Assembly (NCBI GenBank): GCA_016213945.1
Contig: JACQZF010000004.1
Span: 1 to 64,000, forward strand
DNA from: Nitrospirota bacterium
Lineage (GTDB): Bacteria; Nitrospirota; Thermodesulfovibrionia; UBA6902
DNA length: 64,000 nucleotides
Reading direction: 5' to 3'
The position numbers and the translations under genes were made by a program. Shown piece after piece: positions 9,545-52,921 of this stretch. The notes beneath the pieces are model-generated. The model saw only the letters and a program-made list of their open reading frames with translations, was not told where the DNA came from and ran no database searches. The number at the start of each line of letters is the position of its first letter. Position 1 is the stretch's first letter.

Positions 9545-9699
9545 TCGTAAACCCTCCTTTCGGAAATAAAGGTAAGTTGAAAAGTATCATATTTAACAAA
9601 ATAATTCAAGCTGAGCTTTGACAAAATCCCTTAGATTTCAATAGGATAAATCTCTCATTCCAATGTTTTTTAAGCGACAGACGCTTAGATGCCCGCAGC

Positions 9700-10209
9700 C
9701 TACTGGCCGCTGACGCCAAAGATCAAGAGTGGTTTCATACTGTAGAGCTTGAGGCTGTTCCCGGACTTTCTGAATATGAGCTCTGTCGTGCCGCTTGCAA
9801 TATTTCTGCCTGCTGTCTGAACGACTGTATGGCTGCGGGTAAAGGTGATGGTAACAGATACCTTGTCCCCTGAATCGGAAATCACATTATCCAGGGTATA
9901 GCGAATATCAATGTCTGTAAAAAGACTGAGATCTTTTCTCACCGTCCTGTCAAGCAATGCCTTCTCACCTGTAAAATCATCTGCCACAGACTCCATGAAC
10001 TCCCAGGCATTTCTCTTCGAATATGATGCTATCATTCTGTCAATCGCTGCTTTTGCCAGCTCCTGTGTCTCCTGAGGATCGGTAACCACAGCTTTTTCAG
10101 TAGAAGTTTCTGATTTATCAGGCCTGTCGCTCATCGCATATGAACTGACTGAAAACAATACCGATGCAGCAGATAAAAACAAAATCACGATCCACATTCT
10201 TCTCTTCAT
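9700..10209 (-). CDS. Exported NTF2/SnoaL-like domain protein of the four-gene envelope operon
   Basis: Function unknown. The 169-residue protein has an N-terminal signal peptide (MKRRMWIVILFLSAASVLFS) and one globular domain of about residues 48-169. That domain is clearly homologous to the middle of the 14342-15694 product: IDRMIASYSKRNAWEFM, LDRTVRKDLSLFTDIDIRYT and LKLYSMKPLLIFG all have counterparts there. The pattern of a helical start followed by beta strands resembles NTF2/SnoaL-like folds. AAGGAGG precedes the ATG. It is the last gene of the operon, 42 bases after the 1348-residue protein. No catalytic residues can be assigned. Confidence 0.78.
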   Translation of the reverse strand: MKRRMWIVILFLSAASVLFSVSSYAMSDRPDKSETSTEKAVVTDPQETQELAKAAIDRMIASYSKRNAWEFMESVADDFTGEKALLDRTVRKDLSLFTDIDIRYTLDNVISDSGDKVSVTITFTRSHTVVQTAGRNIASGTTELIFRKSGNSLKLYSMKPLLIFGVSGQ

Positions 10210-10251
10210 GAATATCCCCTCCTTGTTTTAGTCCTGTTTATATTATATAAC

Positions 10252-13200
10252 TTATTCCACATACCAGAACCTGCCGCTAAGCGTTTTCATTATTTTTGCC
10301 TTGCCGTTTTCAATGCTCACTAATTCAGATACGGAGGATTTCTCTTCATGTTTTATATTTCTGCTGTATATTCTGCTCGTGATGATGACATCATAAGTTA
10401 CCATGAAGCTGCTATCCGGCTGTTTCACTATCTTCATATTCTGCAGCGAATATTGTATCTCGTCAAATGTCCTGAAGGTCCTTGCAAAATTGACCTGAAG
10501 GTCGCTTAGGGTTGTGCCGTCACCCGCCTCCCAATCGTCGCCGAGGAAACTTATGAGGAGCGAGTCGTTCCTCTCTTCGTAGGCTTCCCTGAATTTCTCG
10601 TAAAGGCTCTTTATTGATGTTATCGTCTCTTCATCTGACAACCCGCCGCTCTCCATCCATTTTTTCAGCATGACAGCCAGCCGCCCTGCAACCCTGTCCA
10701 TAAGCGCAGTATGTTTTATCAATGCATCGCCGAACCCGAGGTTCTCAACAGCAAAACTGCCGTCGAGCCCGATAGGAATGAGCGGGAACTCAGGATAAGA
10801 AGCCTTTAACTCCTCAAACATAATATTGGCCTTTTCAACTTCATCCTTATCAAGAAGTTTATCTATCTCCGGCAATTTCTCAGCTGCAAGAAAAATGATC
10901 CTCATGTAATAATCCTTCAACTGCTGCCTGTATTCTTCATTAGCTGCTTCGAGCTCTGCGATTGCCGAATCCACCGCTGAGACACCTTTTTCAAGATTGC
11001 TAAGACGTGTTAGCAATCCCTTGTAATAACTCATTGTCGCATAACTTACTGAGATAACCTTTCCGCTTGAAGGCAGGCCGAGTTCCTCTGTCCAGCCATT
11101 CCCGAATCCCGGAAAATCATCCATGGTAAGCGCCCGGTATCCGGCCCTGATCGCTGGATCTATACTCTCCTGAATATCTTCAAAGCCCCCTATGTCAGCA
11201 AGATAATTATTCACAGCAACGCGTAACGAATCAGGTTTTAAGCTCATTTCCATTATCTTCTTAAGCGAGGAAGAGTTCATCTTCAGGCGTTTCATCCACT
11301 GCGCTATTCTCCTGTCGGGAGCGGAATACTCGTTCATGCCGCCTTTTGAGAACTCGGCTGACAGGGAGCCGAGCAGCTCTTTATCACTGCTGTCAAGATA
11401 ACGCCTGTCATTTATAAGTATCCAATATGCCTTGTCAACTGCGGCGTTGACAGAAGTTACAGATTGCCTGGACTCATCTTCAAGAGAAAGCATCTTTTTT
11501 ACCGCATCAGGGTATCCGGATATATCTCCGGCCCATCCGTCAAGCAGGTCAAAATTGAAATCAGTTACGAGTGTCTTTGCATCATCGATCCATGACTGTC
11601 CGCTTTCGGAAAATGCGATGGCCTCCTGCGATAACAGGCTCAGGACATCAAGAGGAGAAACCACATCTTTTATCTGTTCATATGAAATGCCTGGGGAATA
11701 ATTATTTTTTGCCATGAGAATATACAACTCTCCCCAGCCCCCTTCAGTGTCAACGATGACAGAAGCCTCATCAATGAGGCGGCGGTATCCAGCAGTTATC
11801 GCGTCGCCTTCTGAGACCGCGTCCTTAACTGCTGACTTGACAAGCTCGTCAATATTCTTTTGAGCCGACCTCATATCAAAAAGCGCTTTTGTGAGGCCAT
11901 GAAAATCAAGGCCTGAGCCTCTCTTGTTTTTATTCGCGCTGATAAATTCAAAGCTCTGGTATCTGCTCCTTGCCTGCATGCTGCTGTCAACCTTCTCCAG
12001 TTCAAGGGCTATCGTGCCGTATGACCTCGGGCCATTAGAAAATATCCCCTCGCCTGCTTTCTTACGAAGAGTGCCCATGTCCTGAATGATTACCGGGAGC
12101 TTATCAAGCACAGCCATACCCCGCTCACTCCATGTCTGTATCCATTTTGCCCTCTCAGTAGAGAACTTAGCTGATTCATCCTCAACTGCTTTTACATATT
12201 TCTGATATTCCTCGCCTGCCTTTACCTTTTCCTCGTTCTGTTGGACATAAAGATTATCCAGCTGCACATTTAAGACTCTGGCCTTTTCGCTCCATATTGC
12301 ACACTGTGCGTCAAGGCTCTTCCGTTCCTCAATAGATGCAGCATCCCATGCCGCTTTATCGAAACTGTTATAACTACGGCACATAAGGGAATTTGGAGAC
12401 GGATATAATGCCGCCTGTGCGGCCCTGACTCCGGCAACTTGCGGACGATAGGTTTCAGCGATCTGTTCAAGTTTACGATCGTATACTTTTTTATTGATAT
12501 CGCTTATCAGTACGAGGGCATCACTCACTGCTTCGAACGCCTGCAGCTCAACGCTCATAAACTCAGCGGCTGTGACATCATTGCTGTTCATCTGCCTGTC
12601 AAGATTCTGGGCTGTCTGAATATACGCATCCGCATAGCCAGTCGGCAGCTGGTATGAATCAGGCAGAGCATTCTTATCAAGTTGTTCCTGGGCTTTTTCG
12701 CTGTTGTCAGAAAGAGTGATGACACCTTTGCGTGCATTGATATTGTTTTGATCGTCTTTGATTGCTTCAGTTAAGGCTTTCTTGCCATTCGTGCCGAGTC
12801 TTCCCCATTCCGATTCCCATACTGCATTCAGATACTCATCCTCGGTCTGCTCGTACCTATCTATCTTCTTCTCCTTAAGCATCGTCCTGTATCTCTCGCG
12901 TATCCTTCCTGCAAGGCCGTTTGCAGAATCAAGGACAGTATCAACATAGGGAGAGCTGGAATAAATAGTCCCAAGCTCGCTCACGACATCCACCATGCTT
13001 CCGACGGCATCGAGCTTTTGTGAAAGAGCGCTTGACTTGCCTTTGACATTTATATTAGCGACCTTGTCGAACTCAGCCTTCATCGCGTCCTGTGTCTTCT
13101 GTATGTACTTATCCCGCACGCCCTTGCTCTCAAAGAAGTTCTTCATAACATCGTCGATATTTCCGATAGCGCCTCCCGGCAGATTCTCATAGGGCAGGCT

Positions 13201-14298
13201 TGATATATGCGCCATTATCTCATCCTGCATCTCTGCCTCAAGTTTTCCCTTGACCGCATTCATAAGCGGATGTTTAAGGTTCGTTATCTCAGAGGCAAGC
13301 TTTTTTTCATACTCCTCCATCATCTTTGCCTTTGCCGTATCAATTATCTTTCCTTCCTTTAGGCCTTTGGCAAAATTCTGAAACTGTTCAGACGCGTCGG
13401 GCGCTGAGGCCATTCCCATCACATCAAGGACAAGCGCGTCGTGAATCCGGGGGGTGAGGTTGCCGCCCTGGTTAGGTGAAATATATTTCTTCCCCATCTC
13501 AAGAAGCATTGCCGGCTTGAAGATATCGTAGATGAGCTTGATATTGAGGGACATGGCATTGCTTACCAGATTCATGAAATCAAAATTATCAACGCAGGCT
13601 GCGATATATCTGCCCATGTATTCCTCTCCCCAGAAGGCCGCTTTCCATCCGAGATTGCGCTGCTCTATTCTTACTGTCTTTCTGAGGCTGTCATATCTGA
13701 CTCTCATCTGTTCGATTTCTGCCTTGATTGCCTGAATCTCTGCCTCGTTGTCAGGCTTTTCCATCGCGGCCTTCTTGCGTGCGAGGATATTGAGATATCG
13801 TTCATGCAACGAGGCATACTGGCTGTTTATCTGCTGCCAGTTCGGGCCGAAGAGCTCATCGTCAGAAGCGCCGAAGAGCCATGTGGATGTGTCAGAGATA
13901 GCCCCGCCAATCGTGTTCATCACCTCGCTTGCGGCGTCAACAGAGGTTTTAAATGAACCTATCAGCGTGTTGATGATGATCATCGAATAAGAGCCGGCTC
14001 TTTCAGCCTCATTTATCGCATTCTCCATCTTCCTCAAAGCAGCAAAATTATCATAGGCTTCATCCCTGAGGCGGTTGTAATTGTCCTGTGTCTTTGAATT
14101 CGGGGATACTTTCCAGGCCTGCAATGCGTCACGGGCTTCCCTCGCGTTTTGAAGCGTCCGATCACGGTACATCTCAACAGACGCGCGCAGGCTGTCCAGT
14201 TCATCGCTGGCCGCAGTAGAGGCGGACAGGAAAGATATGATTAAGGCGCAGATACAGATATAGATAGCAATCTTATATCTATATCGCGCCTTAATCAT
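10252..14298 (-). CDS. Very large exported, mostly helical protein with a C-terminal NTF2-like domain
   Basis: Function unknown; no family recognised. The 1348 residues start with a signal peptide (about residues 1-30, ending near STAASDE). A long alpha-helical body follows, rich in Ala, Glu, Lys and Asp, with coiled-coil-like stretches at about 170-215, 620-720 and 1080-1120. The last 125 residues (KSLYEKFREAYEERNDSLL, TFRTFDEIQYSLQNMKI) follow the same plan as the NTF2-like domains of the two neighbouring genes. It lies 43 bases after the 14342-15694 gene and 42 before the next. Periplasmic or envelope location is inferred from the signal peptide and the beta-barrel partner. Confidence 0.75.
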   Translation of the reverse strand: MIKARYRYKIAIYICICALIISFLSASTAASDELDSLRASVEMYRDRTLQNAREARDALQAWKVSPNSKTQDNYNRLRDEAYDNFAALRKMENAINEAERAGSYSMIIINTLIGSFKTSVDAASEVMNTIGGAISDTSTWLFGASDDELFGPNWQQINSQYASLHERYLNILARKKAAMEKPDNEAEIQAIKAEIEQMRVRYDSLRKTVRIEQRNLGWKAAFWGEEYMGRYIAACVDNFDFMNLVSNAMSLNIKLIYDIFKPAMLLEMGKKYISPNQGGNLTPRIHDALVLDVMGMASAPDASEQFQNFAKGLKEGKIIDTAKAKMMEEYEKKLASEITNLKHPLMNAVKGKLEAEMQDEIMAHISSLPYENLPGGAIGNIDDVMKNFFESKGVRDKYIQKTQDAMKAEFDKVANINVKGKSSALSQKLDAVGSMVDVVSELGTIYSSSPYVDTVLDSANGLAGRIRERYRTMLKEKKIDRYEQTEDEYLNAVWESEWGRLGTNGKKALTEAIKDDQNNINARKGVITLSDNSEKAQEQLDKNALPDSYQLPTGYADAYIQTAQNLDRQMNSNDVTAAEFMSVELQAFEAVSDALVLISDINKKVYDRKLEQIAETYRPQVAGVRAAQAALYPSPNSLMCRSYNSFDKAAWDAASIEERKSLDAQCAIWSEKARVLNVQLDNLYVQQNEEKVKAGEEYQKYVKAVEDESAKFSTERAKWIQTWSERGMAVLDKLPVIIQDMGTLRKKAGEGIFSNGPRSYGTIALELEKVDSSMQARSRYQSFEFISANKNKRGSGLDFHGLTKALFDMRSAQKNIDELVKSAVKDAVSEGDAITAGYRRLIDEASVIVDTEGGWGELYILMAKNNYSPGISYEQIKDVVSPLDVLSLLSQEAIAFSESGQSWIDDAKTLVTDFNFDLLDGWAGDISGYPDAVKKMLSLEDESRQSVTSVNAAVDKAYWILINDRRYLDSSDKELLGSLSAEFSKGGMNEYSAPDRRIAQWMKRLKMNSSSLKKIMEMSLKPDSLRVAVNNYLADIGGFEDIQESIDPAIRAGYRALTMDDFPGFGNGWTEELGLPSSGKVISVSYATMSYYKGLLTRLSNLEKGVSAVDSAIAELEAANEEYRQQLKDYYMRIIFLAAEKLPEIDKLLDKDEVEKANIMFEELKASYPEFPLIPIGLDGSFAVENLGFGDALIKHTALMDRVAGRLAVMLKKWMESGGLSDEETITSIKSLYEKFREAYEERNDSLLISFLGDDWEAGDGTTLSDLQVNFARTFRTFDEIQYSLQNMKIVKQPDSSFMVTYDVIITSRIYSRNIKHEEKSSVSELVSIENGKAKIMKTLSGRFWYVE

Positions 14299-14341
14299 AG
14301 TGAATGACTAAACCCTCCGGATATCTATAAAAGCCGGACTG

Positions 14342-15694
14342 CTAAAAATGCCTTGAACCGTCCGGCTGGTATTTATACTCAAGCACGATTGAAGAAGGGG
14401 TTGTACATAAAATACCATCAAGAAAAGTGCTCGATGATATCCTTATCAATGCGTATTTGCCGTCACTTAAATATAAGGCATATATCTCGTCTTCCACTAT
14501 AGTAGTATGGCCTGCAGAGCTGTAGCCCGACTGGTCAGGGACTTCGGTGATGCTGTCAATGGAGCCTGAACCGAGATCGCTCCATTTCACTCCGGACCTG
14601 AAAAGTATCAGAGGATTGGGAAAGGCGCATTTAGGGCCGATATCTCCAACCACCGGATTAAGGCCGGCTTCCGCCTGTATATCCCCTGTCGAGACTGTAA
14701 GAGTATCAAAATCCACGGGAGCGATGCCTCTCTGGGTAAGTGTCGCCGACCCTGACTCCACCTCGCCGCCTGTCTCCTCTCCGTTTATAAAGGCTATAGC
14801 TTCGTCAAATGGCATCGTCGATGCGTTCCCTGACTCGTCAACAACAAGTATCGACTCATTTGCAGCATTCATGACAGTTCCCGTGGCTACTTCAGCCGCG
14901 TCGCTCAGGCCGAATATAAGAGGGTTCTTCATGCTGTATACCTTCGGCCCTTCTTCGCCATTCCTGAATACGAATTCCGTTATCCCCTTGTCTGTGAATG
15001 TCTGCCCGCTCCTTGATGAGATGACAGTCCTGTTAAAATTCAATGAAACGAATACGCCCTTATCATTTGATGCTATGTTGTTTATCGTGTACCTGATATC
15101 AATGTTGTCAAATGCGCTGAAGTCCTTTCTTATTGCACGGTCAAGGTTAACTGCGTCACCTGCGAATTCTTCGCTGACATATGACATGAAGAGCCCCGCG
15201 TTCTCGTTCCTGTAAGCCTCTATCATCCTGTCCAATGCTTCCTTTATCAGCGACTGTACGCTCTCATCTGAAACAGTCACCTCTTTGCGCGTTGACTCGA
15301 TGTCGTTCGTCTTGCCGGCTGTATCCATTATCTCCACATAGATAACATAGCTTTTGCCCGTCTCCGGCCTGAACAGATATTCAAACGCCCCGTTATCAGA
15401 AAACTTGGCGTCTTCCCATTTTTCTTTATTATCAGTAGTGACCCTGACACCGCCTATCTTCCCTTTTCTGACAGAGGCCTTGCCATTAACCGTTATCATC
15501 CCGTCAGATAGTGACTCTTTATAGATGACAAGCTTTGGCCCGCCTTCTTCAGACGCTACCTTATTGATGTAAAGATAATTTATCGAAACCTCTTCATTCG
15601 ACTGGCCGAAGATCCACCACTTTGCCTCCGCACTTGCCGAAAGCATGAACGTCATTATTAGTGCCGCGATTATATATATCTTTATATTTTTCAT
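14342..15694 (-). CDS. Exported protein: Ig-like N-terminus plus NTF2-like domain
   Basis: Function unknown. The 450 residues begin with a signal peptide (to about ASAEAKWW). Residues 35-140 look like an Ig/Y_Y_Y-type beta-sandwich (VRVTTDNKEKWEDAKFSDN, then SYVIYVEIMDTAGKT). Residues 150-265 are the NTF2-like domain shared with the 9700-10209 product: LDRMIEAYRNENAGLFM, LDRAIRKDFSAFDNIDIRYT and KVYSMKNPLIFG. The last 160 residues are beta-rich and unrecognised. GGGAGGAG precedes the ATG, and the gene lies 11 bases after the predicted beta-barrel gene, indicating tight coupling. Confidence 0.78.
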   Translation of the reverse strand: MKNIKIYIIAALIMTFMLSASAEAKWWIFGQSNEEVSINYLYINKVASEEGGPKLVIYKESLSDGMITVNGKASVRKGKIGGVRVTTDNKEKWEDAKFSDNGAFEYLFRPETGKSYVIYVEIMDTAGKTNDIESTRKEVTVSDESVQSLIKEALDRMIEAYRNENAGLFMSYVSEEFAGDAVNLDRAIRKDFSAFDNIDIRYTINNIASNDKGVFVSLNFNRTVISSRSGQTFTDKGITEFVFRNGEEGPKVYSMKNPLIFGLSDAAEVATGTVMNAANESILVVDESGNASTMPFDEAIAFINGEETGGEVESGSATLTQRGIAPVDFDTLTVSTGDIQAEAGLNPVVGDIGPKCAFPNPLILFRSGVKWSDLGSGSIDSITEVPDQSGYSSAGHTTIVEDEIYALYLSDGKYALIRISSSTFLDGILCTTPSSIVLEYKYQPDGSRHF

Positions 15695-15705
15695 ATTCTC
15701 CTCCC

Positions 15706-17325
15706 TTATATCTGGATATTAATGCCGGTTGTTATGCTGCTCTCCCTGAAGTCCTTCGTCCCGGTCGTATAATTGAAATCATTTACATATGCCCTCAGAT
15801 AGAGCATCCCCTGATTAAGCCTTGAAAGGAGCCCCGGCCTGTAGTAAATGCTCATATTTGCAAAGATCTTTGACGAGTCGTCGGCTCCTGCGGAATCCTT
15901 ATCCAGTTTGTTCTGCCCAACCTTAATGTTCGATGTTATCTTCATGTCAGGGATATCCACACCAAGCCCTGCTGAATATTCGTATATAACATCAGATGTG
16001 TCATCAAGCTCATCATTGGATGTCCACCCTCCAAGATAGACCGCAGGCTTGAATATGAACCTTCCCGATGTATGCCTTGAGTTTAAAGATGTGTTGTATG
16101 TGAACTCCTCGCTCTCTGATGTACCTTTTCCATCATATGATGTATAGCCGAGGTTCGTGTCTGAATCGAATATCCCGAACCTGTCTCTGTAGTTCAGGTC
16201 TAATATGTTGTCCACTTTGGTTGTATTGTTGTTATTCTCGCTTATGTCAAGTTTGTATCCTATGTCTGCCGCCGCATACTGACGGTCAAATACCTTCTTC
16301 ACTGTCACACCGATCTCAGGTTTGTAGTGGTCTGTCCTTCCGGATGTCTTCTGCCCTTTAAGGTTATCCCTGTACCACAAAAACCCGGTCTTGATGCTGA
16401 TGTTCTTGTCATACTTGTATCTCCAGTTCGCCTTGAACTTCTCCCTGTCAGCGGTCGCCGATCCGAGCAGCGTTATGAATTCAGGTGATACTCTCTCATA
16501 TTCCAATGTTACCCTGCTCGGCCCGCCGTCTCCGACTGCCCCTATCTTAAACGCGCTTCCGTGTGAACTTATGTCAGCAGCTCCTGCAGAAGGTATTTCG
16601 CTTGTTTCGTTAATGGCTGCTTCTGCATTCACTGTCAGCCCGGCTATCGGCCTATATTCAGCGTCTATCTCGTATATGAGATTGTCATAAAGCGGGCTTC
16701 CCATGAAGATCTTGTCATCTTCTGACTTCAGTAAGCTTATCCCCGCATCAAGTTCATCGTTGAAGCCATATTTGATACGCGCTGCCCCTGCCTGCCTCTC
16801 AAGCGACATTGTATCAATATCCCTCCACATACTGTCCCATCTCGGATGTGCCGCACCGTACACGATTATGACCTCAGGAGAGTTTGCCTCTTTATTGTAA
16901 AATCTGTATGAAACTCCCTTCAGCGCTGAACTTAATGAATACTGCGAGAATGATTCAAAGGTGTCGCCTATGTTTACTGTATTGACCTTGTCTGTCAGCT
17001 TAAGGTTAAGGTTGGTAAGTGATATATTCTTTACGTCATTCCTCGGGTCGTCTGTTGCCTTGCTCCCGATATTAAATGTGTAGTCAAATCGGCTCACTGT
17101 CCCGTTTCCGTTTATTCCAAGCACGTTAAGATAATGCGTCCCTTCCGTCAGCGACGAACTTAAGCTGCCGGGCCCTGTAATGTCATTGTGTGTCAACGAC
17201 AGCTCATCGGATAGATGCAGCTCGCTCTCGGCTGAAGAAATAGATACACCTGAAAATGAAATTAAAACGAGCAACAACAGGCTGCACAACAATGACGTTG
17301 ACCTTGGCAGTTTTATGTCTTCCAT
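15706..17325 (-). CDS. Predicted outer-membrane beta-barrel protein
   Basis: A 539-residue protein with a signal peptide (about residues 1-32, ending SISSAES). It then shows the alternating hydrophobic/polar strands and frequent Tyr, Asn, Asp and Gly of an outer-membrane barrel (for example INIGDTFESFSQYSLSSALK and MSIYYRPGLLSRLNQGMLYL). The end, SSITTGINIQI, is a plausible last strand, although it lacks a terminal Phe. The exact family is not recognised; it could be a porin-like or export-type barrel. AAGGAGGAA precedes the ATG. It is the first gene of the four-gene operon and is divergent from the TatD/radical-SAM gene. Confidence 0.75.
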   Translation of the reverse strand: MEDIKLPRSTSLLCSLLLLVLISFSGVSISSAESELHLSDELSLTHNDITGPGSLSSSLTEGTHYLNVLGINGNGTVSRFDYTFNIGSKATDDPRNDVKNISLTNLNLKLTDKVNTVNIGDTFESFSQYSLSSALKGVSYRFYNKEANSPEVIIVYGAAHPRWDSMWRDIDTMSLERQAGAARIKYGFNDELDAGISLLKSEDDKIFMGSPLYDNLIYEIDAEYRPIAGLTVNAEAAINETSEIPSAGAADISSHGSAFKIGAVGDGGPSRVTLEYERVSPEFITLLGSATADREKFKANWRYKYDKNISIKTGFLWYRDNLKGQKTSGRTDHYKPEIGVTVKKVFDRQYAAADIGYKLDISENNNNTTKVDNILDLNYRDRFGIFDSDTNLGYTSYDGKGTSESEEFTYNTSLNSRHTSGRFIFKPAVYLGGWTSNDELDDTSDVIYEYSAGLGVDIPDMKITSNIKVGQNKLDKDSAGADDSSKIFANMSIYYRPGLLSRLNQGMLYLRAYVNDFNYTTGTKDFRESSITTGINIQI

Positions 17326-17444
17326 TGAAATATTTCCTCCTTATGTTATTACTGCTGATTTATAAAAAAAGATATCTGAGTATTTCATGCTTATAATAAA
17401 CTAATAATTGATATTTTTGTAAAGAAAAAATGGCGCTTATTTCT

Positions 17445-17473
17445 TTGACAATATTCATGGATACAGATAATAT
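17445..17473 (+). promoter_or_regulatory. Sigma-70-type promoter for the TatD/radical SAM gene
   Basis: TTGACA (17445-17450), a 17-base spacer, then TAATAT (17468-17473). It lies downstream of the upstream in-frame ATGs at 17430 and 17457, so it supports the ATG at 17529 as the start, giving a leader of about 50 bases. Confidence 0.6.
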
Positions 17474-17528
17474 AACAGTTGCCGATTTGGGCAATTATCC
17501 TGCAACAGAAAACTTTTCTACATACAAA

Positions 17529-41682: not shown

Positions 41683-42078
41683 TATAGAAAATAATCACAG
41701 TCTTCTTTCTAAAATATTTCTATAAGCCTTGATCGCAGTAATATATCATCAATTACAGGTGGAAACCCTCAGATTTTCACTTATAGCAACTGAAGCAGCA
41801 CCGAATCATTCAATGAGCACATTTGCATAAGGGTTGCCGAAAGTCAGATAAAGACCTATGAAAATAACAACTCCGGCTTTATGTTGATACATTAAGATAG
41901 CTTCTGTTAAAAACCTGATTACTAACTGTATGTTATATGATTTAAACATATTAAACAAGACGTTTAATATAGGACGTTTAATATAGGAAAATCGCCAGCT
42001 TCCATGGAGCAAACCAGTTAATAAGTAGAGCTTTCTGGTAAAATAAACTTCTCTATCTATAACTTTTGTTATAGGGTC
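41683..42078. other. Intergenic stretch without a supported gene; 14-bp direct tandem repeat
   Basis: About 400 AT-rich bases between two divergent genes. The only structure seen is a perfect two-unit tandem repeat, GACGTTTAATATAG, at 41959-41972 and 41973-41986. A 98-codon minus-strand reading frame crosses most of it but has no recognisable domain or ribosome site. Confidence 0.6.
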
Positions 42079-43725
42079 ATGTATATTAAGAAAATAACAC
42101 AAATCGAGTTAGATATGACAAAGAAAGGCATTTGCTTCTCCCCGCAATTCATTACAACCCTGTTAATCTTATCTATTATCACAATTTCTGTTATAGCATT
42201 TTACGACATACTTGGATATTTTTTCATTGGCAGCGGAACCCTCCCGTTAATAAACAACCATCAAATCCACTCGTTCAATGATATAAGCAGGATAATTAAC
42301 AACCCTTTCAGGAGCGGCTTTATAGAATCAGGCTGGCTCTATTACCGCCCTATGTCAACTCTCTCATTCGGTATTGATTATTTCGTATGGAAATTAAATC
42401 CGTTTGGATATCATCTCACAGATCTTGCATTACACACACTGACTGCAGTATTGGTTTTTTTCTTAGCTCGAATACTCACAAATGGAAATGTGCTGACTGC
42501 CTGGATGAGCGCGATTGTTTTCTCTATTCATCCTGTAGCAATGGAAACCTTACCTGTAATTGCCAGAAGACATAATATAATGGAAGCATTATTCCTTTTG
42601 ATTTCAATAATTATATTTTTGAAATATACCTTCTCTGTTTTGTATAAAAAACTCCTCCTTACTTTATCTCTAACCTTTTATCTACTCGCTCTTGGATCCA
42701 AGGAATCCGGTATTCTATTATTGCCGATCATATTCTTTTCCTTATTGCTTCTTGTGCAAAATACAAGTTCATTTAAAATCAAACTCAACTACATAGTTAA
42801 GAGAATGACTCCTTATCTTATTACTACATCTGTTTTTATTGCCTGGCGTTCTCATATTTTAAAAGAAATTGGAGGGAATACCAGAAAGCAACTCAATCCA
42901 GATAATGTAATGTCAATAGGCAACTCATTATTATTTATTACTAAAGATTATTTTATTAAATTATTTTACCCTTTTGATTTTTTATCATTAAGTACCAATG
43001 CAGAGTCATTGCCATTTATATCTATTGTTTTGATCTGCATCTTATTTGTATTCATTATTTACAACTATCGTAAAATCCGGCATTGTTTTATAGGCACAGC
43101 AGAAAACAAGGTAATTTTATTCTTATTGGTTTGGATGTTATTACCCCTTAGCGGATGTATTTATTTGGGGAATTCAACCAGTCATAGATGTATGTATTCA
43201 TCAATCATTCCTTTCAGTATCATTCTATCTATTCTCTTGTTCAAAAGCATTTTTTCATTAATATCAGCAAGTAAAGAATTCCGTCTCTCCGGGTCTTTCA
43301 AAGCCATTTCTTTATTCAATAACATCTTTCTATCCATTATAACCACAGGGATAGCTGTTTCTCTAATTGTTTTTTCTCCTCTTATGAAGAAATATGGCGA
43401 GTGGCAGGCTATTAGTAACATTTCCCAAACATTTCTTTACAGTCTCACTAATACTCTTCCTGGATTACCCGATGATGCAATAATCCATGTTTACAATTTC
43501 CCTTATGAGGTTTCCACTTACAGATCTAAAATCCCTCATTCTGAGGAAGTTTCAGGACTTGCAGGCTTCAGTATAAAGGCATGGATAGATTTGTTAGACC
43601 CGAATAATAAAATAGAAGTTATAAAGGAAGGAGATATAAGGCTGGAAAATGAGCCGAAAAAAATAACACTTGATATATTAAAGCGAGAAGGGAATAATTA
43701 TGATATTAATATCAAATACGACTGA
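42079..43725 (+). CDS. Polytopic GT-C-like membrane glycosyltransferase
   Basis: A 548-residue protein with about 11 hydrophobic helices. The first long periplasmic loop (SFNDISRIINNPFRSGFI, then YYRPMSTLSFGIDYFVWKLN) and VFSIHPVAMETLPVIARRHN are the pattern of PMT/GT39-like proteins (often annotated as O-mannosyl or TMTC-like transferases). These use polyprenyl-phosphate sugars. The donor and acceptor are unknown. Base composition is more AT-rich than the ilv or comM genes. The start could be the ATG at 42079 or 42115. Confidence 0.75.
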   Translation: MYIKKITQIELDMTKKGICFSPQFITTLLILSIITISVIAFYDILGYFFIGSGTLPLINNHQIHSFNDISRIINNPFRSGFIESGWLYYRPMSTLSFGIDYFVWKLNPFGYHLTDLALHTLTAVLVFFLARILTNGNVLTAWMSAIVFSIHPVAMETLPVIARRHNIMEALFLLISIIIFLKYTFSVLYKKLLLTLSLTFYLLALGSKESGILLLPIIFFSLLLLVQNTSSFKIKLNYIVKRMTPYLITTSVFIAWRSHILKEIGGNTRKQLNPDNVMSIGNSLLFITKDYFIKLFYPFDFLSLSTNAESLPFISIVLICILFVFIIYNYRKIRHCFIGTAENKVILFLLVWMLLPLSGCIYLGNSTSHRCMYSSIIPFSIILSILLFKSIFSLISASKEFRLSGSFKAISLFNNIFLSIITTGIAVSLIVFSPLMKKYGEWQAISNISQTFLYSLTNTLPGLPDDAIIHVYNFPYEVSTYRSKIPHSEEVSGLAGFSIKAWIDLLDPNNKIEVIKEGDIRLENEPKKITLDILKREGNNYDINIKYD

Positions 43726-43743
43726 GATAATTGAGGATTTTTT

Positions 43744-44433
43744 TCAATTACCGTCCTTTGTACAAACCCAAAACATAATTAGACCCATCCTATTAAAAAT
43801 CGGTACAGCTTCAAACACCCTGTTGAAAAAATCTGATATAAAAGGAATGTGTACCGGAAGAATTAACCGATGGCCTTTCTGAATTATGACCAGCTTATTA
43901 TCAAGCAAAAAGCTCTCAAGTTTTTTTGAGCTTATCCTATAATGCGGACCCTCCGGCATCTTCAACTTTAATTTTTCCGCAAGAAGCAATACAGGTTCCC
44001 AAAGCGGATTCGCCATTGAAATGATTAAGATAGCCCCTGGATGAAGGACCTGACTCAGGGCATTGATCGTTTTCTGCGGGTATTCCAGATGTTCAATCAC
44101 ATCGGATAAAAAAATATGGTCAAATCTTCTGGAGAGCAGGAAGGAACCATGTTCTTCCACTGTCCCGCTTATAAATTCAAGGCTATTTTTGTCCTTATAT
44201 TTGGATTTGGCTAAATTAATCATCTCCGGACTGACATCAATTCCAAGTCCATATGCAGCATCCAGTTCTATTAAAATATCCCCCGTGCCGCATCCGATAT
44301 CAAGTACCCTGCTGCCAGAAGGAATCAGGGTTTTATACAATTTTTTCAAATTGGAGTAATAATACCAGTTTCTTTTTTTATAATAGTCATAGTCCCTGGC
44401 TATCTGGTCAAAATGCTCGGAAATCATACTCAT
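43744..44433 (-). CDS. Class I SAM-dependent methyltransferase
   Basis: A 229-residue methyltransferase: SAM motif I VLDIGCGTGDILIELDAAYG near residue 40, then GIDVSPEMI and FDHIFLSDVIEHLEYPQ. It is paralogous to the N-terminal half of the next gene (FDQIARDYDYYKKRNWYYYS versus FDSIAKDRGKWRKRGAYYHE, and similar C-termini with VHIPFISDFFNR versus VWIPLISAFFNR). It overlaps the fusion gene by four bases. Its place in the glycan cluster suggests a sugar or lipid-carrier substrate, which is inferred. Confidence 0.87.
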   Translation of the reverse strand: MSMISEHFDQIARDYDYYKKRNWYYYSNLKKLYKTLIPSGSRVLDIGCGTGDILIELDAAYGLGIDVSPEMINLAKSKYKDKNSLEFISGTVEEHGSFLLSRRFDHIFLSDVIEHLEYPQKTINALSQVLHPGAILIISMANPLWEPVLLLAEKLKLKMPEGPHYRISSKKLESFLLDNKLVIIQKGHRLILPVHIPFISDFFNRVFEAVPIFNRMGLIMFWVCTKDGN

Positions 44434-45839
44434 ATGAATTTTATCTTCCTCATAGCAAATAAAGTCATCCTTAACAGAAGCAGGCCATGCCTGAAACGGC
44501 TTATCTGTGTGCTTCCATAAACCCTTTCGCGGTACCTGATGGGTATCTCGGCAATTTTAAGATTTAATTTTGCAGCGCCGAACAAGAGATCAAAATCACC
44601 AAAAGGGTCAAAGTCTCCAAAATACTTTCTTCCGGCGATGACTCTGTCATAATCTTCTCTCCATAGGACTTTAGTACCGCATAATGTATCCCTAATTCTC
44701 TGTTCGAGAAGATAAGTAAATGCCCTGCTGAAAAACTTGTTGCCAAGAAGGTTTAAAAATCTCATTGCTTCTTTTTCCATCTGATAAACAAGCCTTGAGC
44801 CATTGATAAACTCGCCTTTACCGGAAGCTATAGCTTCAAAAAATTTAGGGAGATCCTCAGGGGGAACAGTGAGGTCGGCATCCAGTATCATCAGGACATC
44901 ATTTTTTGCATTAGAGAAACCTTTTCTCACCGCATCACCCTTCCCTTTGCCAGCCTGAACAAATACTTTTATGTCCCTGTCTGAATACTTTTCCTTTACC
45001 CTTTGGCATTCTTCAAGAGTCCCATCACTGGAATTTCCTTCCACAAAAATGATCTCAGTATGCTTACCCATATCAGGCGTTCTTAAAACAGCCTGTTCAA
45101 TATTTCCCTTCTCATTCCTGCACGGAATTATTACTGAACATGTAACATCTTCTGAGGATTTTCTCTTCATCAAAGGCCTGGCAACAATAACTTCAGCCAA
45201 GGCAAGTTTCCAGAAAAACGGAAAGTTCCCAATGATTCTATTGAAAAATGCGGAAATAAGCGGGATCCAGACAGGAATTAAACAGCGATAGCCCTTTTTC
45301 ACCACTTCAAAGTCATTAAGAAAAAGTAAATTAGATATATCCTCTATGGGAAGCCAGTGCTGCATAAGGTGTTTCATCCTGAGTCCTGCAAACTCAGAGA
45401 ACTTCAGTAACGGCTCCCATAAATAATTGTAGTAAACTATTATCAAGCGTGTTTCAGATTTACATACTTTATGTAGCTCGTTGAGAGCTAACTGAATATC
45501 ATCAACAACGCCAATTGTTCCGTCTATCACCACGTAATCAAATTTTTCTTCAATATTAAGGGATTCAAAGTCGCCGGCCTCAAACTGCAAACCCGGGAAC
45601 TTGATTCTAGCAGTCTCAACCATACGCTGGCTTAAATCAATGCCGAGCCCCCTAACCGGCTTTAAAGCAGCGAGTGTCTCTCCCGTGCCGCAGCCTATCT
45701 CTATAACTGAAGAACCTTCAGGGATTAAAAAACGAAGATACCTTTCAAGCTCTTCATGATAGTAGGCGCCTCTCTTTCTCCATTTCCCCCTGTCTTTGGC
45801 AATGGAGTCAAAAAAATTAATTTTTTCAGCTTTATTCAA
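44430..45839 (-). CDS. Methyltransferase-glycosyltransferase family 2 fusion
   Basis: A 469-residue two-domain protein. Residues 1-215 are a class I methyltransferase (VIEIGCGTGETLAALKPVRG, FDYVVIDGTIGVVDD). Residues 230-469 are a GT2 domain of the dolichol-phosphate glucose/mannose synthase type: CSVIIPCRNEKGNIEQAVLR, MILDADLTVPPEDLPKFFEA (Asp-x-Asp) and CGTKVLWREDYDRVI. The fused product may couple sugar transfer to a polyprenyl phosphate with a methylation. It overlaps both neighbours (4 and 8 bases), so it is firmly in the operon with fcl and the single-domain methyltransferase. Confidence 0.87.
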   Translation of the reverse strand: MNKAEKINFFDSIAKDRGKWRKRGAYYHEELERYLRFLIPEGSSVIEIGCGTGETLAALKPVRGLGIDLSQRMVETARIKFPGLQFEAGDFESLNIEEKFDYVVIDGTIGVVDDIQLALNELHKVCKSETRLIIVYYNYLWEPLLKFSEFAGLRMKHLMQHWLPIEDISNLLFLNDFEVVKKGYRCLIPVWIPLISAFFNRIIGNFPFFWKLALAEVIVARPLMKRKSSEDVTCSVIIPCRNEKGNIEQAVLRTPDMGKHTEIIFVEGNSSDGTLEECQRVKEKYSDRDIKVFVQAGKGKGDAVRKGFSNAKNDVLMILDADLTVPPEDLPKFFEAIASGKGEFINGSRLVYQMEKEAMRFLNLLGNKFFSRAFTYLLEQRIRDTLCGTKVLWREDYDRVIAGRKYFGDFDPFGDFDLLFGAAKLNLKIAEIPIRYRERVYGSTQISRFRHGLLLLRMTLFAMRKIKFI

Positions 45840-46920
45840 CTTTCATTGCTCCAGGATATTGACTATTTCTGCGGTACCAGTCATAGGTCAGCCTGATCCC
45901 CTTGTCAAGTTTTATATTTGCCTTCCAGCCGAGATCAGCCATACGCCTTACGTCAAGCAGTTTCTTCGGCGTTCCATCAGGCTTTGAAACATCGTGTTCT
46001 ATTTCACCATCAAATCCTGTTAAATCTTTTATCAATAATGCAAGATCCTTTACCCGTATGTCTTCCCCTGTACCTATATTGACGCACTCTCCAATATCAT
46101 TGCAAGTATAGTTGAGCATCAAAAACAGACACGCATCCGCAAGATCATCAACATGCAGAAACTCCCTATAAACTTCCCCTGCTCCCCATATCAATACACG
46201 ACTTTCGCTGATTCCTACACTTTTAAGAAATTCAAAAATGGAGTTATCGCTCCTTTGATTTAATTCGGCATCAAGGCCAAACCCTAAATGATAGCTGCCG
46301 ATGTCCCTTCTTATCTCTTGATATTTATTTCCACTCAGGAGTTTTGCAAGATGAAATTTTCTTAATAATGCCGGTAAAACATGCGCTGTTTCAAGATTGT
46401 AATTGTCAAAAGGGCCGTATAAATTCGTTGGCATAGCAGATATGAAATTTGTGCCGTATTGTTCATTATAATACCGGCATAATTTCAAGGCTGAGATCTT
46501 TGCTATCGCGTATGGCTCATTTGTAGGCTCCAGACTTCCAGTAAGAAGGCTCTCCTCTCTGATAGGCTGTTCTGCAAATTTGGGATAAATACAGGAAGAC
46601 CCGAGATTAAGAAGTTTCTTTACGCCATATTTACTGGATGAATGAATTACATTTGCGGCTATGATTATATTTTCATATATAAACTCAGCCTTATACGTGT
46701 TATTCGCTAAAATACCTCCCACCTTTGCAGCAGCTAAAAATACATGGTCAGGCCGCTCTCTTTCAAAGAAATCTTCAACTTCTTTCTGTCTGGTGAGATC
46801 AAGTTCCGAGTGGGGTCTGGTAATGATATTATTGTACCCGCTGGATCGAAGGGCTTTCATCAGAGATGAACCCACCATGCCTCTATGACCGGCAATATAG
46901 ATTTTCGAGGCTTTTTCCAT
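45832..46920 (-). CDS. fcl: GDP-L-fucose synthase
   Basis: Epimerises and reduces GDP-4-keto-6-deoxy-mannose to GDP-L-fucose. NADP motif IYIAGHRGMVGSSLMKAL at the N-terminus, catalytic SSCIYP (Ser) and YAIAKISALKLCRYY (Tyr-x3-Lys). At 362 residues it is about 40 longer than usual. The extra segment is at about residues 190-245 (YQEIRRDIGSYHLGFGLDAE), before the conserved GAGEVYREFLHVDDLADAC. Similar insertions are known in some bacterial homologues. It works with gmd, 45 bases upstream. Confidence 0.93.
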   Translation of the reverse strand: MEKASKIYIAGHRGMVGSSLMKALRSSGYNNIITRPHSELDLTRQKEVEDFFERERPDHVFLAAAKVGGILANNTYKAEFIYENIIIAANVIHSSSKYGVKKLLNLGSSCIYPKFAEQPIREESLLTGSLEPTNEPYAIAKISALKLCRYYNEQYGTNFISAMPTNLYGPFDNYNLETAHVLPALLRKFHLAKLLSGNKYQEIRRDIGSYHLGFGLDAELNQRSDNSIFEFLKSVGISESRVLIWGAGEVYREFLHVDDLADACLFLMLNYTCNDIGECVNIGTGEDIRVKDLALLIKDLTGFDGEIEHDVSKPDGTPKKLLDVRRMADLGWKANIKLDKGIRLTYDWYRRNSQYPGAMKVE

Positions 46921-46965
46921 GCTTAAATTATCAGAGAGAACTTATAAGAAAAAACTTGCGTGTGC

Positions 46966-48099
46966 TTATTTAATTGTTACTCTATTACTTGTCCATCCTA
47001 TGTTCTTCTGACTTAATATTCTTTTGCCTTCACCTGGGGATACAACACCAAGAAGTTCCATATCCGCATCAACCATTATCTGAACAAGCTCTTTAAAGGT
47101 AACTTTCGGCACCCAGTCGAGCTTCTCCTTAGCTCTGGAAGCATCGGCAAGGAGGTGATCTACCTCAGCGGGCCTGAAATACTGAGGATCGATCTCAACT
47201 AAAACGTCTCCGTTTTTCAATTCTATATTTAAGGAGGGAGCAATAGAACTTACAAAACCCTTTTCCTGCATACCATCACCTCTCCATTCCAGTTCAATAC
47301 CGGCGTACCGGAAAGAAAGTTCTACAAATTCCTTTACAGAATGACTCTCACCTGTTCCTATAACATAATCAGCCGGTTCAGACTGCTGAAGTATAAGCCA
47401 TTGGCATTCAACATATTCAGGTGCAAACCCCCAGTCTCTGCGGGCTTCCAAATTCCCAAGAAAAAGTTTCTTCTGATTACCTGCGATAATATTTGCAACC
47501 GCTCTTGTTATCTTTCTCGTGACAAATGTCTCGCCCCTCCTCGGGGATTCATGATTAAAAAGGATTCCATTACAGGCAAATAAATTGTACCCCTCTCTAT
47601 AATTCACAGTCATCCAGTAAGCATAAACCTTTGCGGCTGCATAAGGGCTTCGCGGATGAAAAAGCGTCTTCTCATTCTGAGGCGGAGAGGTCGCCCCGAA
47701 CATCTCTGATGACGATGCCTGATAAAATCGTGTCTTTATTCCGCTCATTCTTATGGCCTCCAGCAATCGTGTTGTGCCTATGGCAGTGATATCACCGGTA
47801 TATTCAGGCATATCAAAACTTACCCTTACATGACTCTGGGCGCCGAGATGATATATCTCTTCCGGTTTAATGTTATAGACAATATTTGTAAGCTGACCTG
47901 CATCCGAGAGATCCCCATAATGAAGAAAGAGTTTTGCATCAGTGACATGCGGGTCAACATACAGATGGTCTATTCTCTTGGTGTTAAATGTGCTTGCCCT
48001 GCGGATAAGGCCATGGACTTCATATCCCTTTGACAAAAGTAACTCAGTAAGATAAGAGCCGTCTTGGCCGGTAATGCCTGTGATCAATGCTTTCTTCAT
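46966..48099 (-). CDS. gmd: GDP-mannose 4,6-dehydratase
   Basis: Converts GDP-D-mannose to GDP-4-keto-6-deoxy-D-mannose. NADP motif [16 protein letters not shown], the catalytic SSSEMFGA (Thr/Ser and Glu) and [17 protein letters not shown] (Tyr-x3-Lys), plus the substrate segment [17 protein letters not shown]. The conserved family N-terminus begins at the ATG at 48099; in-frame ATGs at 48105 and 48117 are also possible and none has an ideal ribosome site. The upstream 250 bases to the divergent FAD gene hold no gene. Confidence 0.94.
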
Positions 48100-48363
48100 A
48101 CTCATAGATTTTATCATAACCTAAATGTTTTTTCTTCTAATTTTATAGAGCCGCTCCAGGTGGTTAGCAGTTTCCCGAGGCGCAGCCTGATAAAATCTAT
48201 TGCGAGAATATCCCTGGCTGTTTTTGCATTATCAGTGGGAAGATGAAGTCAAAACACTATCTAATAATGATATAATAAACATGTAAATGTTTTGGGAATC
48301 AAATACAGCGATTCATCGTAACTACTAATTATTTTATGATAATAGGTTAAATGGCTTAGTGAA

Positions 48364-49665
48364 ATGAAAATTGCAATAATTGGCTCCGGAATAGCCGGGC
48401 TTGCTGCCGCATATGAGTTGAGCAAATCCAGCGATGCTGAGATATCCATATTTGAAAAGGATCATGTGCTTGGCGGATTAGCTTCCAGCTTTGATTTTGG
48501 CGGCGCCCAGCTTGAAAAATATTATCATTTTATTTGTGGGTGTGACGATGACTTATTAGACTTAATCAAGGAACTGGGAATTGAAAATCGTCTTAGATGG
48601 AAACACAATAAGCAAAGCATTTTTTACAATGGTAAATCTTATAATTTTAGTACACCGTTGGATCTTTTGAAATTTAAGCCCTTAAGTTTCATTAACAGGC
48701 TTAAATCTGGTCTTGCACTAAAGTCTGCTATCACTTCTAAAGATTGGGAACGATTTGAGGGTATCACTGCTGTCACATGGCTTAAAAACCTGGTTGGGGA
48801 AGAAGCTTATAATATAATCTGGCATCCTCTTTTAAAAGTAAAATTTGGGCCATATTATGATAAGATCTCTGCACCATGGATCTGGCACAGGATACACCGC
48901 GTTGCATCATCCAGAAAAAATCTACTTTCCAAGGAAATGATAGCCTATATTGAAGGAGGGACAAAGATTCTGGTCGATAACCTTGAAGAACACCTTTTGA
49001 AACAAGGCGTAAATATTCACAGGAGAAGATCAGTAGAGAAAATAATTATTAAAAACAATAAGGCTCAGGGAATTATTGTTGACAATGAGAAACTCTTTTT
49101 TGATAAAGTTATTTCTACTGTAGCATTGCCGCTTCTTGATGAACTTCTCCCTGATAACGCCGATAAATTAAAAAAGCAAATACAACGCATATCATTTATC
49201 GGAGTAGTTTGTGTGGTACTCAAGTTGAAGCATGATATTACCGACACTTTCTGGCTGAATATCAACGACTCTAACTTCACTTATAATGGAATAATAACAT
49301 ATACCAACCTTAATCCTTCGCCTCAATTTAAAGGCAATAAAATAGCTTATATCCCATATTATGTTTCTGCAGAAGACCCGCTTTTCAAATACCCGACACA
49401 GGAGCTATTCAATAGGACTATTAAGCCGTTACCATTAATAAATAGACATTTTAGTTTGGATTGGGTTGTTGACTATAAAGTATTTAGGGATAAGTATGCC
49501 CAACCGATATCTACGGTAGATTTTTCTAAGAACATAATCCCAACTCGCTCACCAGTTGAAAACCTTTATATTTCTGACTCTTCACAATTGTATCCAATGG
49601 ACAGATGTCTTAGTGGAATGATAGGGCTATCAAAACAAATAACAAAAGACATATTAAGTAAATAG
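48364..49665 (+). CDS. FAD-dependent amine-oxidase-like oxidoreductase (protoporphyrinogen oxidase/UDP-galactopyranose mutase-like)
   Basis: A 433-residue flavoprotein beginning with the FAD motif MKIAIIGSGIAGLAAAYELS and then the family segment VLGGLASSF. The C-terminal FAD contact is PVENLYISDSSQLYPMDR. These are usually annotated NAD(P)/FAD-dependent oxidoreductase in glycan clusters, and the fold is shared with UDP-galactopyranose mutase. The position among glycosyltransferases would suit a sugar-ring-modifying role, but a true mutase is not supported by any specific motif. It stands alone on the plus strand. Confidence 0.8.
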   Translation: MKIAIIGSGIAGLAAAYELSKSSDAEISIFEKDHVLGGLASSFDFGGAQLEKYYHFICGCDDDLLDLIKELGIENRLRWKHNKQSIFYNGKSYNFSTPLDLLKFKPLSFINRLKSGLALKSAITSKDWERFEGITAVTWLKNLVGEEAYNIIWHPLLKVKFGPYYDKISAPWIWHRIHRVASSRKNLLSKEMIAYIEGGTKILVDNLEEHLLKQGVNIHRRRSVEKIIIKNNKAQGIIVDNEKLFFDKVISTVALPLLDELLPDNADKLKKQIQRISFIGVVCVVLKLKHDITDTFWLNINDSNFTYNGIITYTNLNPSPQFKGNKIAYIPYYVSAEDPLFKYPTQELFNRTIKPLPLINRHFSLDWVVDYKVFRDKYAQPISTVDFSKNIIPTRSPVENLYISDSSQLYPMDRCLSGMIGLSKQITKDILSK

Positions 49666-49767
49666 ATCTTTTATTCAAACATCATGACTTCCATTAACTG
49701 AAACGAGTTTTCTTCCGGAAGAAATTGAATTTGCATCAAGAAAGGTATGTTATGCCTTTTCCCGACC

Positions 49768-51474: not shown

Positions 51475-51636
51475 AAAGGAAAATATTATAAAGCTATAAG
51501 GATTGTTTAAGATATAACATTTAACGGCGAAATGTCAAAAATGCAGCATTAATACTTTTTCCGATGTCCGTTTTGAAGATTATAACAGATAATTTTCTGC
51601 TTTAGAGGAATCTTACGGTTGTAAATCAACGAATCA

Positions 51637-52878
51637 TTATTTGAGAAGATGTAAGGTAACAGCGATCTTGTAAAGGTTTATTACCATAACAGATAAATAG
51701 AGAGCTATAAATGGCAGGCGCACAGTAGTGGAAGATGTTTTGAGCTTTACAAATGAAAATCCCGCAAACATTAATAAAATAAAATAACTATAAGAAGGAT
51801 ATAAAAATCTGGAATAAATAGCATCATTGTTTGTGAATGTCCATACGATAATTGTAATCAATATGTATCCAAAGAAAAATTCAGCAAGAACAATAAGTGC
51901 CGATAAATTCTGAAGATCAGTTATAAATGCCTTTAATAAACTGCCTGAGTTAATATTTTTACGATGTTTGATCAGGGTTAAGAAAATAATAAATAATGTC
52001 AAAATAAATAAAATGAAGAGACCTATTTCAATTATGGAAAAATCATAAGGAAGATGATTGACCTCATGGTCAGGATATTTAAAAGGAGACAAAAAATCCA
52101 ATAAAAAAGTCTTTAAAGTTAACATGACATTATTACAGAAAGAAGTTTCAGCTAAATAACTGTATTTTCCACTTAAGTTTCTGTACTCATAACCAACCCT
52201 CGGCATCCCCGTGAAATAACCGGAATTTTTGTAGTTTTTCAGCAAAAGAAGCCCAATCGGCCCAAGAGATATTATGTTAAAGAGTAACAATTGATATTTT
52301 TGCCGCCATTGAGTCCTGCTGTTTAATAAAACGATATTAATAATCATAAGGGGGAATAGCCACAACATCGCATGGTATCGTGAAATAAATATTATTGAAC
52401 TCAATACGGATAAGATAACTAATGAAATATAGGTCTGTTTATTTACGTAAGCAAGAAGCGTGAAATATACCAAAAAGCTCATAGGAATGACCAAAGCTTC
52501 AGCGGTAAACTGAGAGAGGTTCCAATAGTTAAAGGCACAAATTGAGTAAAAAAGAAATAACCAAATCGGATTAATATTTGAAATATATTTTTTTGAATAT
52601 ATATGTAATAGAAAAAGAGTGCAAAAGAAAAGCAACAGGTTTGTCCAGTCAGGAGAAATATTTATTGATCGTGCAAGAAATAGTAATATAGCATATCCTG
52701 GTGGAAAGTAGCCCAAACCGCCTCTTCCAATTGCACTATTGAAGCTCATACTCTGATCAAGCATCTCCTCAGATTGGGGGGAAATGGGCATCAATTCTCT
52801 AAAAGAAAAATAGACACCGGTAATAAAAACCGAACCTGAAAGAATAACAATGAAAAAGATTATAGTTTTTTTACTCAT
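51637..52878 (-). CDS. Polytopic membrane protein, GT-C-like
   Basis: A 413-residue protein with about 10 hydrophobic helices. A first loop after the N-terminal helix contains SEEMLDQSMSFNSAIGRGG and then YFPPGYAILLFLARSI, typical of GT39/PMT-like enzymes in which the first loop holds the catalytic acidic residue. No family is securely recognised. It lies between two other GT-C-like genes on the same strand and its sequence is AT-rich. It could equally be a polysaccharide polymerase-like protein. Confidence 0.6.
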   Translation of the reverse strand: MSKKTIIFFIVILSGSVFITGVYFSFRELMPISPQSEEMLDQSMSFNSAIGRGGLGYFPPGYAILLFLARSINISPDWTNLLLFFCTLFLLHIYSKKYISNINPIWLFLFYSICAFNYWNLSQFTAEALVIPMSFLVYFTLLAYVNKQTYISLVILSVLSSIIFISRYHAMLWLFPLMIINIVLLNSRTQWRQKYQLLLFNIISLGPIGLLLLKNYKNSGYFTGMPRVGYEYRNLSGKYSYLAETSFCNNVMLTLKTFLLDFLSPFKYPDHEVNHLPYDFSIIEIGLFILFILTLFIIFLTLIKHRKNINSGSLLKAFITDLQNLSALIVLAEFFFGYILITIIVWTFTNNDAIYSRFLYPSYSYFILLMFAGFSFVKLKTSSTTVRLPFIALYLSVMVINLYKIAVTLHLLK

Positions 52879-52921
52879 TTTTTATGAACACAACCATATC
52901 AACCTACGGATTTATATTTGT

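Follow-up and report, generated by a model that had tools for sequence, protein, structure and literature searches.

Background

To our knowledge, few routes are known by which large proteins are carried across the outer membrane, and the surface biology of the Elusimicrobiota, Nitrospirota and Desulfobacterota is little known. Here we analyse a four-gene operon in a 64,000-nucleotide stretch of DNA (hereafter the window) from a Nitrospirota bacterium (GenBank assembly GCA_016213945.1, contig JACQZF010000004.1, positions 1 to 64,000), which encodes a predicted outer-membrane barrel, a putatively exported protein with an immunoglobulin (Ig)-like and an NTF2-like domain, a large putatively exported protein and a short NTF2-like protein. 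We hypothesize, with a probability that we put at about 0.5, that the operon represents a system of outer-membrane export or display that has yet to be characterised: a C-terminal NTF2-like domain would dock an exchangeable large helical protein, the cargo, on an Ig-NTF2 adaptor and a wide barrel.

The nearest working analogy is found in the type IX secretion system (T9SS), namely in its cargo with type B C-terminal domains (CTDs) and the PorP-like barrels (sprB/sprF, PG1035/PorP). PorP-like barrels, which serve the T9SS, are 14-stranded, and in sprB/sprF the barrel is linked to a large protein that carries a conserved domain at its C-terminus (PMC9143113). The solved CTD of RgpB is an Ig-like β-sandwich (PMC4804311). 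As in the T9SS, the system described here has large exported proteins, diverse except for a conserved C-terminal domain, together with a cognate barrel (linked, as in sprB/sprF) and an adaptor-like protein; unlike in the type B arrangement, its barrel is modelled with 26 strands and it is found in other phyla, and unlike that of RgpB its C-terminal domain is NTF2-like. A wide barrel of 26–28 strands is also what it has in common with MtrCAB, whose MtrB barrel is filled by MtrA (PMC5971433).

Results and discussion

A constant C-terminal domain joined to unrelated N-terminal regions

Among 35 large proteins of 877–1470 residues, the C-terminal ~125 residues, which end 0–2 residues from the C-terminus, gave a BLAST match in all 595 of 595 pairs. 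The N-terminal regions matched in 115 of 528 pairs and fell by BLAST into five groups (T1–T5), to which we add T6, from Desulfobacteria, and T7, a helical-NTF2-IgCterm fusion next to a divergent barrel. Between these seven groups, whose N-terminal regions span ~750–1340 residues, the profile-profile probability did not exceed 27.5% (highest for the T3–T5 pair), and T1, the type of the window's protein, reached at most 2.3% (hhalign) against any other type; split-half controls within groups gave 100%. We found no family model for any of the seven groups of large helical proteins named here. T1 is also present in G044 (78%) and G064 (33%); G, L and C numbers are our labels for genomes, loci and contigs.

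An AlphaFold model of a T2 cargo is nearly all helical (mean predicted local distance difference test score, pLDDT, 64.7), and its C-terminal domain has NTF2 topology (pLDDT 90–96). The window's T1 protein is presumed to be helical from its composition and its relatives. A fused variant occurs in Elusimicrobiota (L149 2513-7743, L152 3104-6273), where a protein of 1196 residues joins a helical region and an NTF2 domain to an adaptor-type C-terminal domain; the barrel that comes next has diverged strongly (E 1e-16 to 1e-18).

The C-terminal domain behaves as a recruitment module, to judge from tandem cargos, cognate partner genes and cargos without a linked barrel. Several cargos of differing types adjoin one barrel in L043 (three), L047 (two) and L046 (two); in four genomes a cognate tetratricopeptide repeat (TPR) gene precedes the T3 cargos, and a cognate family of 266–319 residues precedes unlinked T6 cargos. 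In Desulfobacteria L157 and L158, a cargo stands without a barrel on the stretch read, as would be expected if the domain were a recruitment tag; these unlinked cargos led us to drop the idea that the domain is confined to the barrel locus.

Relatedness of the NTF2-like domains

An earlier note on this DNA, made from its letters, had taken the NTF2-like domains of the second and fourth genes to be homologous and the end of the large protein to follow the same plan. Both statements hold. The copies in genes 2 and 4 are 43% identical over 133 residues (BLAST E 2e-28) and match at a profile-profile probability of 99.9% (E 2e-35), with the Ig domain as a control giving 0.1%. The end of the large protein is a more distant member: BLAST alone gives E 0.001, and profile-profile comparison gives 92.7% (E 4e-7) against the Ig-NTF2 copy and 95.9% (E 5e-9) against the short protein. 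The note had also predicted an outer-membrane barrel as the first product and an Ig domain in the second, and the barrel model and the Pfam matches described below agree with it.

The closest named relatives of the cargo tag are Cds6_C and NTF2-like C-terminal domains. The Cds6_C model matched the copy in the window's large protein at E 5e-4, below its gathering cut-off, and 15 of 34 members of the C-terminal domain overall (best E 1.3e-5). Unlike Cds6_C proteins, the large proteins lack a transpeptidase domain, and their NTF2 domain is joined to unrelated helical regions. Foldseek matched the modelled domain to LinA, scytalone dehydratase and the CaMKII hub; the C-terminal profile, searched against the PDB, retrieved nothing beyond de novo NTF2 proteins and one chance match (E 0.2–0.5). 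VirB8-like proteins of type IV secretion loci are single-pass inner-membrane proteins that also have an NTF2 domain; there was no VirB8 family match, and the N-terminal segment here looks like a cleavable signal. We saw the short single-domain gene only in relatives from the class Thermodesulfovibrionia.

The barrel and its adaptor

The AlphaFold (AF2) model of gene 1, built from 33 sequences, has 26 strands (mean pLDDT 87) and no separate N-terminal domain. Homologs in three phyla are 38–68% identical over the full length. The best Foldseek match in the PDB is MtrB (E 2e-9, template modelling score 0.58), followed by FimD and PapC. Identity to MtrB is about 9%, and the resemblance to MtrB and to ushers is therefore one of shape and not of membership; when the 33 barrels were compared with family models, no MtrB family matched at E 0.1 and no usher model matched. 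A viral-structure search with the barrel returned generic porins only, and PDB sequence searches with the barrel and adaptor profiles gave nothing useful except an Ig-like sulfite-oxidase domain. Conservation in the barrel marks residues 121–140, 161–170 and 271–290, and it is highest in the FESFSQYSL, PRWDSMW and LLGSATAD regions; in the model the conserved segments would lie mostly in loops facing outward or folding into the lumen, provided that both ends are periplasmic.

In the adaptor, Big_13 is matched in 28 of 33 relatives, and 34 of 35 full-length relatives retain the motif [KR]WW[ILVK]FG, with GWWIFG in the remaining one. Mean pairwise identity is 0.57–0.59 for the barrel, the Ig domain and the adaptor NTF2 domain, 0.47 for the cargo C-terminal domain and 0.285 for the adaptor tail. 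Distances correlate with those of the barrel at a Mantel r of 0.92 for the Ig domain, 0.94 for the adaptor NTF2 domain, 0.68 for the cargo C-terminal domain and 0.67 for the adaptor tail, although shared ancestry of the genomes also adds to these correlations. From the values of 0.92–0.94, barrel and adaptor look like one inseparable pair.

Some barrel genes appear to be split by frameshifts, in G092 (L011 12097-13694) and in Desulfobacula L063 (4599-5869), through sequencing errors or decay. In two Nitrospirota genomes and one Desulfuromonadales genome, a gene next to the barrel and transcribed divergently from it encodes a membrane protein that ends in a LuxR-type DNA-binding domain (L038 8383-9693, L037 8453-9796, L042 8356-9666), a candidate regulator. 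Distant barrel homologs of about 640 residues (L150 1767-7001, L151 2299-8764) have as neighbours a TPR protein and membrane proteins that look like MotA/ExbB and MotB types, a motor assignment made by eye only.

Distribution, gene order and gain or loss

Scanning GTDB contigs with a barrel profile returned 34 loci, which the organism names of the records place in Nitrospirota, Desulfobacterota and Elusimicrobiota. With hidden Markov models (HMMs) built for this analysis, all 34 of these independently found barrels proved to have an Ig-NTF2 gene as a neighbour, a linkage that is beyond chance. A large protein with the conserved C-terminal domain is beside the barrel in 30; the contigs of the other four end 0–2.5 kb downstream of the Ig-NTF2 gene. 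A contig scan with the window's large protein alone gave no match, since its N-terminal type is rare, and it was the barrel profile that proved effective.

Genome surveys, which are samples and whose contigs are mostly from metagenome-assembled genomes, gave strong matches to the C-terminal domain in 6 of 396 Nitrospirota genomes, 10 of 199 Elusimicrobiota, 4 of 192 in the class of Desulfobacula and 8 of 46 in that of L040. All 10 carriers in the Elusimicrobiota sample fall within the 12 genomes with a strong barrel match.

The commonest order is barrel, Ig-NTF2 gene, cargo. The Syntrophorhabdaceae-like set has the order cargo, Ig-NTF2, barrel, short Ig-NTF2, and G249 has Ig-NTF2, cargo, barrel; G092 has the same four genes as the window in the same order with other flanks, its barrel gene being the frameshifted one. 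The core of the system is three genes (barrel, Ig-NTF2 and large C-terminal NTF2 protein), and the four-gene set is not obligatory. The earlier note had spoken of a four-gene envelope operon that looked like a dedicated secretion, adhesion or appendage system of unknown type: as a dedicated envelope system of unknown type it stands, the fixed set of four does not. The profile searches and the survey of operon conservation that it proposed as checks came out in its favour, as no match assigns the operon genes to a known system and the genes co-occur across phyla.

The window contig and G019 are syntenic, with the same flanks and proteins 88–98% identical, but about 110 bp in G019 stands where the window has 9651-17520. 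In G044 the operon lies at the same place between the same flanking genes. Cleanly absent from the one genome and present at the same site in the other, the operon was therefore gained or lost as a whole. Its boundaries showed no repeat of more than 9 bases.

Two related sets (G178 and G064; L030 7743-12675, L010 4683-6383) carry extra exported genes for products of 735, ~470 and ~92–117 residues, one weakly like DUF2330, and the G178 set ends with a short NTF2 gene. Contigs also break in or near NTF2 or cargo genes (G064:C1, C6, C9, C13, C17; G505:C16; G517:C6), which suggests that repeated copies or strain variation upset the assembly.

A model for export or display, and its alternatives

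Our hypothesis of an export or display system is based on gene content, on co-occurrence, on a constant C-terminus with replaced N-termini and on gain or loss as a unit, together with two models, that of the 26-strand barrel and that of the C-terminal NTF2 fold in a relative. We propose that all products of the operon would be exported by Sec and that the barrel, in the outer membrane, would serve as a wide pore or as a platform. The Ig-NTF2 protein, whose contact with the barrel we infer from co-occurrence, would be its obligate periplasmic or lumenal adaptor and make up a fixed platform with it. The cargo would dock there by its C-terminal NTF2 domain, probably through NTF2–NTF2 pairing with the adaptor, the small NTF2 protein or both; in the Nitrospirota form, the short protein might be a competitor, cap or chaperone. 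After passage through the barrel, the N-terminal region of the cargo would act at or beyond the cell surface, perhaps in an adhesive or other interactive role. The system would thus be constant and the functional N-terminal region of its cargo exchangeable.

Several points weigh against this proposal. Profile tools may overlook true homology among diverged helical proteins, and the cargo model is of low confidence outside the C-terminal domain and comes from a relative whose N-terminal type differs from that of the window. Most genomes have a single cargo gene, inside the operon, and the tag is rarely seen on unlinked proteins. The operon encodes no energy source or inner-membrane component. 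By analogy with MtrB and MtrA (PMC5971433), moreover, the 26-strand barrel may have a partner inside it.

The layout of the locus, a barrel linked to a large protein whose C-terminal domain is conserved, is also that of sprB/sprF (PMC9143113), and the barrel could be an anchor rather than a translocon. The large protein would then reach the surface in another way and be held by barrel and adaptor through its C-terminal domain, much as with type B CTDs and PorP-like barrels. The best-conserved barrel segments would suit such an anchor, as the loops in which they fall would be extracellular with both ends in the periplasm. PorP-like barrels, however, have 14 strands and come with a T9SS (PMC9143113), against 26 strands here, and SprA_N was above cut-off in none of 24 genomes and no other exporter was identified; we therefore consider an anchor unlikely.

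The Sec-type signals of all the proteins, their helical content, the usual single large protein per genome inside the operon and the fact that NTF2 domains also serve as oligomer hubs (the CaMKII matches) would fit a structural envelope complex, with the large helical protein as a periplasmic tether or scaffold joined to the barrel by NTF2 and Ig domains and the N-terminal types reflecting fast scaffold replacement. A scaffold would, however, be expected to keep its N-terminal region conserved, and tandem unrelated cargos, cognate partner genes and unlinked cargos suit exchangeable cargo better, so that we regard this explanation as improbable. A still less probable one, which we would give only a slim chance, is that the large proteins are exported through the barrel and are membrane-active against other cells, for example as helical pore formers. 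Members of T1–T5, types that are otherwise unrelated, have an internal hydrophobic stretch 80–190 residues from the N-terminus (rich in glycine and alanine in T2, T3 and T5), and the replaced N-termini suggest diversifying selection or exchange; yet T1 and T4 show this stretch only weakly, and in the window's own protein, as in many others, it is weak or does not reach the threshold. Nor did we find a toxin family or fold match or an immunity-like gene.

We return to export or display with a more far-reaching and more doubtful form of the proposal, which we offer tentatively: an undescribed pathway in at least three phyla with an NTF2 tag, an Ig-NTF2 receptor, a 26-strand conduit, and interchangeable helical effectors or adhesins with cargo-specific partners. 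In the open-access literature we found no description of such a system of barrel, Ig-NTF2 protein and C-terminal NTF2 domain. Should the C-terminal NTF2 domain prove to be a sorting tag, it would mark an additional outer-membrane route for large proteins with a signal of its own. The tag makes the export claim directly testable, and the barrel-adaptor pair suits complex modelling and cryo-electron microscopy.

Comparison with other known systems

Membership of the T9SS is argued against by strand number, by the fold of the tag and by the lack of SprA above cut-off: SprA_N (PF14349) was over its cut-off in 0 of 24 genomes (23 carriers and G019), with one sub-threshold match, in a search whose controls included no positive genome and whose sensitivity is uncalibrated. 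We also rejected a member of MtrCAB, there being no haem motifs (0 CxxCH in the four operon proteins) and no match to an MtrB model. Chaperone-usher systems (FimD/PapC), the second-best structural match, likewise pair a wide single-chain barrel with an Ig-domain periplasmic partner, but their cargo consists of small donor-strand pilins, unlike the large and modelled helical cargo here, the operon's barrel has no separate N-terminal domain and, unlike the two-Ig chaperone PapD, the adaptor has one Big_13-type Ig domain and an NTF2 domain. No usher or PapD-type chaperone model matched, and this resemblance is structural only. Two-partner secretion (type Vb, FhaC) was dismissed, with no match to POTRA or two-partner secretion models; the first strand of the barrel starts at residue 35 and there is therefore no room for a POTRA domain.

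Polymorphic toxins resemble the large proteins in having a constant targeting part and swappable modules, but in the operon the polarity is reversed, the C-terminus being constant and the N-terminus variable; with no toxin-family match and no immunity gene, this candidate was discarded. Anti-phage defence was set aside, as no PADLOC model matched the four window proteins.

Layout of the operon

As the earlier note had it, the four genes are co-directional and closely spaced: all are open reading frames (ORFs) on the minus strand (Table 1), and from gene 1 to gene 4 the intervals between them measure 11, 43 and 42 bases. Each protein begins with a hydrophobic signal-like segment. Scans of the four proteins against Pfam, NCBIfam, PHROGs and PADLOC gave nothing above cut-off. 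Promoter and terminator scans at the operon stayed at chance level and an Rfam search found nothing, so that the claim of a single transcript is based on gene spacing alone. A plasmid search gave no match.

Table 1. Features of the operon in window coordinates
Feature	Position	Strand	Basis or remark
Gene 1, predicted outer-membrane β-barrel, 539 residues	15706..17325	-	ORF
26-strand barrel, gene 1 residues 35-538	17223-15712	-	AF2 model
Gene 2, Ig-like + NTF2-like + variable C-terminal domain, putative exported adaptor, 450 residues	14342..15694	-	ORF
KWWIFG motif, gene 2 residues 25-30, expected mature N-terminus	15605..15622	-	
Ig-like domain, gene 2 residues 25-142	15269..15622	-	HMM boundaries; Pfam Big_13 / Mo-co_dimer
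NTF2-like domain, gene 2 residues 143-284	14843..15268	-	HMM; homologous to gene 4 and C-terminus of gene 3
Fast-evolving C-terminal region, gene 2 residues 285-450	14345..14842	-	Mean pairwise identity 0.285, against 0.58 in the preceding domains
Gene 3, putative exported cargo, type T1, 1348 residues	10252..14298	-	ORF
Type-specific N-terminal region, gene 3 residues 1-1222, presumed helical	10633..14298	-	
Conserved C-terminal NTF2-like domain, gene 3 residues 1223-1348, putative docking domain	10255..10632	-	
Gene 4, putative exported single-domain NTF2-like protein, 169 residues	9700..10209	-	ORF; same place in G044, G092
Presence/absence unit, whole operon	9651..17520	no strand	Missing from syntenic locus of near relative G019

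The contig of window positions 1-26000 (G000:C97) looks mis-binned. Its similarity and synteny are with G019, which belongs to another genus; its IlvD is only about 82% identical to that of its own bin's genus, and the bin has second copies of ilvB/ilvD (C100) and of a TatD-radical-SAM gene (C99). The true host of the contig is probably an organism related to G019 and G044. Elsewhere in the window, the guanine plus cytosine content falls to 0.34–0.36 in parts of 42000-54000, compared with about 0.45–0.48 around the operon, and this stretch is possibly acquired DNA.
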